NCBI RefSeq assembly: GCF_000430585.1
Contig: NZ_AUMH01000010.1
Coordinates: 62,001 to 126,000 of the forward strand
DNA: 64,000 bases
Origin: Alicyclobacillus herbarius DSM 13609
Lineage (GTDB): Bacteria; Bacillota; Bacilli; Alicyclobacillales; Alicyclobacillaceae
Direction of reading: 5' to 3'
Position 1 is the first letter of the stretch. Every line of letters starts with the position of its first letter. Position numbers and translations under genes: made by a program. Below the pieces are notes generated by a model. The model saw nothing but the letters and a program-made list of their open reading frames with translations. It searched no databases and was not told where the DNA came from. Of the stretch, positions 37,299 to 64,000 are shown in pieces.

Positions 37299-37538
37299 AT
37301 GTCCGATTCTCCGGTACTTGGCGATTACTTTGTCGTTCAAGCGTTGGAAAACGGGGTGCAGGTGATTGGTCTCACCCGAGGTGCGGAAACGAAGTTTCAT
37401 CATACGGAGAAGCTCGACCGTGGGGAGGCCATGGTGGTGCAGTTCACTGAACATACGTCCGCGATGAAGATCCGTGGAAAAGCCATTCTTTATACCAAAC
37501 ATGGGCAAATTACGACAGGCAGCGAAGGCACGCGATGA
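37299..37538 (+). CDS. mtrB: trp RNA-binding attenuation protein (TRAP)
   Basis: TRAP subunit of 79 residues. The protein forms an 11-mer ring that, with bound tryptophan, wraps RNA carrying (G/U)AG triplets. Conserved stretches are [22 protein letters not shown] and [17 protein letters not shown]. The RNA-contact residues known as Lys37, Lys56 and Arg58 in B. subtilis align with Lys38, Lys57 and Arg59. GAGAGGGGGAAA precedes ATG 37299. Candidate targets in the same window are at 60443-60473 (aroC) and 63448-63710 (trpD). Confidence 0.95.
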
Positions 37539-60442: not shown

Positions 60443-60473
60443 TAGAAGAGATAGAGTGGAGTCGAGTGAGGAG
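60443..60473 (+). promoter_or_regulatory. candidate TRAP-binding site over the aroC ribosome-binding site
   Basis: Triplets at TAG 60443-60445 and GAG at 60448, 60454, 60459, 60464 and 60471 (a further GAG at 60468 overlaps the last spacing) are separated mostly by 2-3 nt, the spacing TRAP uses. The last triplets form GAGGAG at 60468-60473, which is the Shine-Dalgarno site of aroC. TRAP bound here would block translation when tryptophan is plentiful. Confidence 0.7.
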
Positions 60474-62966: not shown

Positions 62967-63338
62967 TTGTCGACCTCGGTGCGAGGCATTCGCGGCGCCG
63001 TAACCGTGAAAGAAAACTCGACGGAAGCCATTCTGAACGCTACGAAGGACCTGATGAAGCAAATCGTGGAACGTAATCATTTGCAACCTGAAGACGTGGT
63101 AAGTGTATTGCTTACGATGACCCCGGATTTAACCGCCTGCTTTCCAGCCAAAGCAGTCCGCAGTTTTCCAGGATGGCAATGGGTTCCTCTCATGTGTGCG
63201 AGCGAGGTGGCAGTCGAAGGGGCGTTGGAACACTGCATTCGTGTCTTGGTCCATGTGAATACCGATAAGGCGCAATCGGAGATGATTCACGTCTATTTGG
63301 GTGAGGCGGTCAGATTGCGACCCGACCTGGCGGGTTGA
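62967..63338 (+). CDS. aroH: chorismate mutase AroH
   Basis: AroH-type mutase of 123 residues, which makes prephenate. It has VRGIRGAVTVKENSTEAIL, VVSVLLTMTPDLTACFPAKA, WQWVPLMCASEVAVEGALEH and the Arg of CIRVLVHVNT. The start is TTG 62967, 8 nt after AAGGAGGG. It is the last gene before the trp leader. Confidence 0.95.
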   Translation: MSTSVRGIRGAVTVKENSTEAILNATKDLMKQIVERNHLQPEDVVSVLLTMTPDLTACFPAKAVRSFPGWQWVPLMCASEVAVEGALEHCIRVLVHVNTDKAQSEMIHVYLGEAVRLRPDLAG

Positions 63339-63370: not shown

Positions 63371-63399
63371 TTGACGAAGGGCTGGATAGCACATATCAT
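63371..63399 (+). promoter_or_regulatory. sigma-A-type promoter of the trp leader
   Basis: TTGACG (63371-63376), a 17-nt spacer, then TATCAT (63394-63399), each one base from consensus. The start near 63406 gives a leader of about 310 nt before trpD. Confidence 0.7.
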
Positions 63400-63447
63400 A
63401 TACACATCATTGATTGAGAGTTTCGTTATCAAGCAAAGTGCTTGACA

Positions 63448-63470
63448 GAGTTGAGTGGAGTGGAGCTGAG
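63448..63470 (+). promoter_or_regulatory. candidate TRAP-binding site B in the trp leader
   Basis: Five GAG triplets begin at 63448, 63453, 63458, 63463 and 63468, an exact 5-nt period with spacers TT, TG, TG and CT. A TAG at 63481 is off this pattern. This is the arrangement to which the TRAP ring binds. Confidence 0.75.
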
Positions 63471-63555
63471 TCCGGGTAAATAGGGTTTGGTGGCGACGCA
63501 TCGCCGCCTGACCGGTTGCCAGTTGTGGTGAGCACGCTGTCTTCGGAAGGCGTAT

Positions 63556-63598
63556 CCGCAGGTTGCTGAGCGGCCGGCTCTCAGCCTGCGGTTTCGTT
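63556..63598 (+). terminator. candidate attenuator hairpin in the trp leader
   Basis: A stem of 7 plus 5 bp (63556-63562 with 63585-63591 and 63566-63570 with 63580-63584, 3-nt bulge) is followed by TTTCGTT. GCTGAG in site B (63465-63470) could instead pair with CTCAGC at 63580-63585, as in an antiterminator. Confidence 0.5.
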
Positions 63599-63682
63599 CA
63601 TTCTGGGGATAGGCACCTGCCAGCAGCGGCTTATCGACCTGTGTCTTGTCGGCCGCAGCGTGCGCCATCGGATTTTCTCCAC

Positions 63683-63710
63683 GAGGCGAGACGAGATGAG
63701 AGGAGACGAG
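63683..63710 (+). promoter_or_regulatory. candidate TRAP-binding site C over the trpD ribosome-binding site
   Basis: Six GAG triplets begin at 63683, 63688, 63693, 63698, 63703 and 63708, all with a 5-nt period. The last triplets include the Shine-Dalgarno AGGAG (63701-63705) of trpD. With site B this makes eleven triplets. Confidence 0.75.
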
Positions 63711-63715
63711 TTTGG

Positions 63716-64000
63716 ATGAGCGATTTTGTACTGGATGTCCTGAAGCAGGTCGCCGAGGGACGGACGTTGAGCGCGGACACGGCAGAACGACTGATGAACC
63801 AATTGATGGAGGGACAGCTGACGCCGGTCCATATTGCCGCGTTTGCGTCGGCCATGGCGGTGCGCGGTGAGACTGTGGCGGAAATTGTTGGCTTCGCCCG
63901 CGCCATGCGCAGCCATGGCACTCACGTTCAGGTACCGTTCGACGTGGTCGATACGTGCGGTACCGGTGGTGACGGCATCGGAACTTTGAATATATCCACG
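63716..64000 (+). CDS. trpD: anthranilate phosphoribosyltransferase, 3' partial
   Basis: The first 95 residues are present; the gene runs off the right edge. MSDFVLDVLKQVAEGRTLSA, LTPVHIAAFASAMAVRGETV and VVDTCGTGGDGIGTLNIST are the start of TrpD, which joins anthranilate to PRPP. ATG 63716 is 10 nt after AGGAG, itself inside the GAG repeats. Neither trpE nor trpG precedes it, unlike the B. subtilis order aroH-trpE-trpD. Confidence 0.95.
   Translation, partial: MSDFVLDVLKQVAEGRTLSADTAERLMNQLMEGQLTPVHIAAFASAMAVRGETVAEIVGFARAMRSHGTHVQVPFDVVDTCGTGGDGIGTLNIST

Follow-up and report, generated by a model that had tools for sequence, protein, structure and literature searches.

The 64,000-nucleotide stretch of the Alicyclobacillus herbarius DSM 13609 genome analysed here, referred to below as the window, ends within a tryptophan operon. 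The first gene of this operon, trpD (63716–64000, + strand; TIGR01245), runs off the window; downstream of it (L010) follow trpC, trpF, trpB, trpA, a DAHP synthase gene and tyrA, as named from their translations, while trpE is absent from the operon. The gene before the leader, aroH (62967–63338, + strand; TIGR01796, E = 5.5e-49), encodes chorismate mutase. All leader features described below lie on the + strand. A promoter-like sequence, TTGACG and TATCAT separated by 17 nt, is located at 63371–63399; the sigma-A-like scan of the leader region yielded one match where 1.2 would be expected by chance. A TTGAC box with a loosely matching −10 element was found by script in 41 of 41 leaders of the family, a count that carries no shuffle control. 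Near the presumed 5′ end of the transcript, GATTGAGAGTTTCG (63412–63425) holds an extra GAG and is identical in all three members of the genus although their leaders have diverged further downstream, in the insert described below. The GAGAG within it may be a further contact for TRAP, upstream of a small hairpin, CAAGC-AAAGT-GCTTG (63430–63444), which is placed like the stem-loop at the 5′ end of the trp leader in B. subtilis.

Directly downstream of this hairpin lies site B (63448–63470), with five GAG triplets starting at 63448, 63453, 63458, 63463 and 63468. Site C (63683–63710) has six, starting at 63683, 63688, 63693, 63698, 63703 and 63708, and every spacer within either block is exactly 2 nt. 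These positions bear out the earlier note on this DNA, which had described five and six triplets at an exact 5-nt period, about 210 nt apart; the insert between them (63471–63682) measures 212 nt. Counted strictly, the blocks hold 5 and 6 repeats separately and 11 together, and site C reaches seven if spacers of up to 8 nt are allowed. The Shine–Dalgarno sequence of trpD, GAGAGGAG (63698–63705), is situated inside site C, upstream of the ATG at 63716, and the repeats overlap it as they do at sites of the trpG/trpP type, where the gene overlapped is the one regulated.

Arrays of at least five GAG triplets at this period occur twice on the two strands of the window and in none of 100 dinucleotide shuffles, and among all 64 triplets only GAG forms such arrays on the + strand. 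By both window and leader shuffles, (G/U)AG triplets spaced 2–3 nt apart are thus present beyond chance in the leader of a tryptophan gene. Across the whole genome, five (G/T)AG triplets at a 5-nt period give four matches and a backward-read control pattern gives five, so that the pattern alone is not rare and its position is what counts: three of the four matches are sites B and C, and the fourth lies in the leader of a trpG/pabA gene. A looser pattern is found at 8 places, as compared with 53 for the backward control. One of the eight is an array of five (T/G)AG triplets with spacers of 2, 3, 2 and 2 nt (60443–60466, + strand), with a TATAAT-like box before it and the start of aroC just after it. 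Five triplets are present there in the three genomes of the genus, and three to four in 4 of 27 other aroC leaders (30 of the 40 matching genomes were compared). This array is a possible third short TRAP site, which would place chorismate synthase under TRAP control. A scan of the window against Rfam at the gathering score returned three tRNAs and no match to a leader RNA.

The predicted ligand is encoded in the same window. The product of mtrB (37299–37538, + strand; PF02081, E = 3e-36) matches TRAP structures in the PDB with E values of 7.5e-25 to 3.3e-54, and an alignment read by eye indicates that the RNA-contact residues F32, E36, K37, D39, K56 and R58 (B. subtilis numbering; list from Table 3 in the available part of PMC3184956) are all kept. 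By the same reading and source, residue 15 of the protein is Leu, which it shares with the 11-mer of B. stearothermophilus, and residue 72 is Thr, shared with the 12-mer of B. halodurans. For anti-TRAP, no PF15777 match was obtained in the genome by a search that detects the B. subtilis control.

The second tryptophan operon shows the same arrangement. Of the trpE-like matches in the genome, the strongest (398 bits, below the family cut-off of 518; two weaker ones lie elsewhere) is located on another contig, behind the trpG/pabA gene (TIGR00566). The leader of that gene contains five GAG triplets, followed by a CACAGC..GCTGTG hairpin with its T7 tract and, at the ribosome-binding site, three further GAG triplets. 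Around such a hairpin, the block sizes are 5+3 here and 6+3 and 5+3 in the two congeners. In all three the ends of the insert are predicted to be closed (P 0.96–1.00, against shuffle means of 0.30–0.37; single-genome shuffle fractions 0.07–0.16), and one closing pair differs on both sides, being C–G here and U–A in the congeners. Likewise, in g4, a genus of the family represented by 15 genomes, a hairpin stands between two GAG blocks in all eight readable trpG leaders, some of the blocks comprising only two triplets. In several other genera (L103 of G011, L090 of G003, L098 of G018), the trpG/pabA leaders carry a CAGCTC...GAGCTG hairpin beside the ribosome-binding site and no GAG triplets near the start; this hairpin could be a different means of hiding the ribosome-binding site.

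The earlier note had proposed looking for the same split in related genomes, and it is readily found. A trpD gene is present in 41 of 41 genomes of the family, and reading all 41 leaders revealed a 5′ block together with a block at the trpD start in 40, from 15 of the 16 genera. Both blocks have at least three triplets in 36 of these 40 leaders, the other four (G003, G018, G007 and G037) having only two at C. Two or more chains, each with a minimum of three triplets, occur in 37 of the 40, where shuffled leaders would give 0.4. With the layout in 40 of 41 genomes and its chains so far beyond shuffles, the split is, by these comparisons, real and old in the family. The exception, G012 (L039), has nine contiguous triplets at the trpD ribosome-binding site and no B block of three. 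Outside the family, two blocks surround a terminator-like stretch in G147 (4 and 5) and G091 (4 and 4), and G126 has 4+4 around a 23-nt insert that folds only weakly (−2.9). In five leaders of a sister family (G045, G047, G051, G043, G041), a B-type block is accompanied by a terminator, and the start of trpD has at most two triplets. Two side observations may be added. G112 (L075) resembles G012 in showing the unsplit form, with five contiguous triplets at the ribosome-binding site and no upstream block of at least three. In the sister family (f2; L057, L058, L061, L062, L073), a block of four to five triplets is followed by a shared GTTCAC...GTTCTTTTT terminator-like element, fewer than three triplets being found at the ribosome-binding site.

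TRAP is the textbook case in which the number of repeats in the RNA site equals the number of subunits in the ring, and the earlier note had attached meaning to the total of eleven. That part of its reading is not supported. Strict sums of B and C in the 40 leaders are 6 (four leaders), 7 (13), 8 (10), 9 (six), 10 (three), 11 (three) and 12 (one); with spacers of up to 8 nt, none of the 40 sums to 11. The two counts are uncorrelated (Spearman −0.01, p 0.93), with no sign of compensation, and the trpD leaders of the congeners have 4+3 and 4+5. The note had itself named loss of the counts in comparative alignments as fatal to its proposal, and for the number eleven they are indeed not kept. Eleven as a design rule is ruled out by sums ranging from 6 to 12, and the total here, judged against those of its relatives, is probably a coincidence. 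Leader count and ring size need not match in any case, since TRAP rings of 12 subunits exist and the B. halodurans leader has 19 triplets (PMC3184956, in excerpt). What stood, and proved to be family-wide, is the split TRAP-type site, one part of it serving an attenuator-like hairpin and the other the ribosome-binding site of trpD.

According to PMC4027176, B. subtilis TRAP binds stably to RNAs with seven or more repeats, and it stays on the nascent RNA with about four subunits free and about seven repeats exposed; this limit belongs to the B. subtilis protein, that is, to the TRAP of another species. Each block falls short of seven while the sum reaches at least seven in 33 of the 40 leaders (29 of 40 with the wider spacing). 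The strict count at C is two to six in all 40. With spacers of up to 8 nt, B alone reaches at least seven in 10 of 40 leaders, and the 10–12 loose triplets counted there in three of them (G011, G028 and G022) are enough to fill a ring without C.

The folding of the insert bears on whether the two blocks could be brought together. Alone, the 212-nt insert folds at −102.4 kcal/mol (z −4.5 against shuffles), with a predicted end stem between UCCG (63471–63474) and CGGA (63669–63672). The ends of the trpD inserts are predicted to close in this genus (P 0.78–0.94; shuffle means for trpD and trpG inserts taken together, 0.28–0.38), and no single insert of the genus closes beyond its shuffles at the 5% level (fractions 0.07–0.21). 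In two trpD inserts, those of G000 and G002, the end-to-end distance is not reduced relative to shuffles. Among 25 long inserts, P(close) exceeds 0.5 in seven, three of them from this genus and four from the 22 inserts elsewhere. General closure of long inserts is not supported, closure outside this genus being no better than in shuffles.

The genus g4 offers a simpler situation. Its trpD inserts are only 20–67 nt long, and no terminator was noticed in them on reading the leaders. Their folding energies are on average below those of shuffles (z +0.2 to −6.0, mean −2.2), and they are predicted to fold in such a way that blocks B and C meet side by side. For the nine inserts of 20–32 nt the closure measure is trivial (shuffles 0.76–1.00); of the six inserts of 63–67 nt, five close (0.81–1.00; shuffles 0.36–0.44), and the sixth, G039, scores 0.00, a value probably due to the placement of its block B on the 5′ side of two further GAGs. 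Where the closing stems have diverged, in five g4 leaders, 48 of the 50 pair cells are kept (0 of 500 shuffles), and the covariation score of 0.46, as compared with 0.26, was reached by 2 of 500 shuffles. The pairs changed on both sides (three of ten; 39 of 500 shuffles) are weaker evidence, and further pair types number seven (106 of 500). For the 22-nt g4 stems, covariation does not exceed that in shuffles, the six leaders concerned (inserts of 20–27 nt) being too alike.

Since each block is short for TRAP alone, the two may act as one composite site, and this reading is favoured by the g4 inserts and by the seven-repeat limit, which is reached by the sum and not by the block. With tryptophan in good supply, TRAP loaded with it would bind B, in front of the attenuator-like hairpin, on the nascent RNA and favour termination at the hairpin. 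On RNAs that escape termination, this ring would still have about half of its subunits free and would most likely capture C, which covers the trpD ribosome-binding site. Held on B and C, the ring would loop out the folded insert and block ribosome entry at trpD. The blocks and their positions, the conserved split and the TRAP gene are plain observations. That both blocks are genuine TRAP targets is, on the sequence evidence, highly probable, whereas we would put the chance that one ring holds both, which we infer from the counts and the folds, at even. The fuller proposal can be advanced only tentatively, with slightly less than even confidence. It holds that two blocks, each too short, are joined by one ring looping out a folded insert; that the insert accommodates a terminator in some genera and has shrunk in g4 to a hairpin or closed stem with the blocks side by side; and that termination would be coupled to ribosome blocking in both tryptophan operons.

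Alternatively, the blocks might be independent sites for two rings, B serving attenuation, like the site of the B. subtilis trp leader, and C ribosome blocking, like those of trpG and trpP, so that the leader is shared and the ring is not. The five sister-family leaders that combine a B-type block with a terminator, and have no more than two triplets at the start of trpD, would fit this well, as would the contiguous ribosome-binding-site blocks of G012 (nine triplets) and G112 (five) that lack a B block of three. The three leaders with loose triplets enough for a ring of their own at B point the same way, and so does the lack of general closure among long inserts. A separate ring at C would, however, have to be held by strict triplets that in 40 of 40 leaders stay below the limit known for B. 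subtilis TRAP (PMC4027176, in excerpt), and in g4 leaders the folded insert is predicted to place the blocks side by side. We regard two independent rings as unlikely, with perhaps one chance in a few.

The terminator-like hairpin in the insert, CCGCAGG...CCTGCGG (63556–63591), is followed by a poor T tract, TTTCGTTCATT (63592–63602), and was not called by a terminator consensus scan of the leader. It belongs to the type TCCGCAGG...TGTGGAT plus U tract of the relatives, which a motif search could assign, partly by construction, in 25 of 25 two-block leaders outside g4. A U tract mostly follows, that of G021, G027 and G016 being imperfect. B and the upper part of the hairpin are complementary through lineage-matched sequences (GAGTTGA in G021, GAGGAGA in G013, GAGAGCT in G011, GAGCTG in G009), and the longest Watson–Crick run between them is greater for matched than for mismatched combinations (genus-level permutation over 14 genera with three definitions of B, p 0.002–0.011; controls 0.18–0.32). 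A version of the test based on duplex energy gave p 0.0036 for a control segment as well; this metric is thus confounded and we do not rely on it. An antiterminator sought by equilibrium folding is unsupported, as in 22 of 25 leaders, the present one included, the hairpin is predicted to form whether B is blocked or free (0.85 or higher in either state). A change like that of a TRAP switch was obtained for G027 (0.47 to 0.93) and for G010 with a shortened hairpin (0.16 to 0.96); for G014 the wrong hairpin was scored. B would have to act before C is transcribed, so that five repeats would have to suffice for attenuation. On balance, control of the hairpin by B appears somewhat probable in the family at large, and less so in this genus owing to its poor U tract.

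It could be argued that in this genus only C matters, attenuation having decayed so that the leader works at the level of translation and B remains as an anchor or relic. The tract here, TTTCGTTCATT, and those of the two congeners, ATTTGACCATA and ATTTGAGCATA, contrast with the mostly T-rich ones elsewhere, the terminator scan passes over the hairpin, and the g4 leaders keep two blocks with no visible terminator. Set against this, the stem is kept in all three members of the genus. A poor tract need not abolish attenuation, for in B. subtilis, too, the U tract of the trp attenuator is interrupted; that weak terminator stops transcription once TRAP has bound, and does so even after its U stretch has been replaced (PMC3913778, in excerpt). 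That only C matters in this genus strikes us as quite improbable. Still less credible, indeed barely so, is a chance purine-rich stretch around the Shine–Dalgarno sequence plus an unrelated GAG run, free of TRAP control: any Shine–Dalgarno sequence gives one or two GAGs, four leaders have only two at C and the control pattern is as frequent genome-wide, but the arrays exceed window and leader shuffles, two blocks recur in 15 of 16 genera, and the genome has a TRAP gene and the same arrangement at its second tryptophan operon.

A TRAP-controlled tryptophan leader with a two-part binding site is therefore the explanation that we find best overall, and a reasonably probable one; binding, attenuation and the single ring are its deduced components. 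The family would show that a TRAP site can be split by a folded insert, with a few repeats left on either side, and can even so serve two decisions. Its natural series, from nine contiguous triplets through 4 + hairpin + 4 to 3–8 + long insert + 2–6, makes the number of subunits engaged and the bridging by a ring testable, and hints at how an attenuator and a ribosome block could, by a simple path, evolve into each other. It is tempting to speculate that, if the bipartite reading is true, a single protein–RNA event couples termination to ribosome blocking in both tryptophan operons.

Like the trpEDCFBA leader of B. subtilis, this leader has what is presumably the equivalent small 5′ hairpin just upstream of the triplets. 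In both, a tryptophan operon carries triplets ahead of a weak terminator (here a putative one) whose U tract is interrupted. The B. subtilis leader has 11 (G/U)AG repeats spaced 2–3 nt in one site (PMC3913778 and PMC4027176, both in excerpt), whereas here five are followed by six more 212 nt downstream, on the ribosome-binding site, and the continuous 11-repeat site of a B. subtilis-type attenuator is lacking. In B. subtilis trpE is controlled by refolding of the RNA; here C lies on the ribosome-binding site itself and the first gene is trpD. In the overlap of triplets and Shine–Dalgarno sequence the leader resembles the B. subtilis trpG and trpP sites, and by analogy TRAP would block ribosome entry as it does there (PMC4347634, in excerpt). 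That excerpt gives TRAP sites as 9–11 repeats; the cluster at C, with 6 (or 7 if spacers of up to 8 nt are allowed), remains below the nine or more of the trpG/trpP sites, holds 2–5 strict triplets in the remaining relatives with two blocks, and has an upstream block as its partner. A literature search, judged from titles and the beginnings of abstracts, turned up no paper describing a TRAP site that is split or bipartite. The arrangement described here, present in two operons, would vary the TRAP leader by combining a short block for attenuation with a second short block over the ribosome-binding site. A further known system is the B. halodurans trp leader, in which repeat number (19 triplets) and ring size (12 subunits) differ (PMC3184956, in excerpt), with the distinction that B. 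halodurans has a surplus of triplets, whereas the leaders described here have a deficit in each block.
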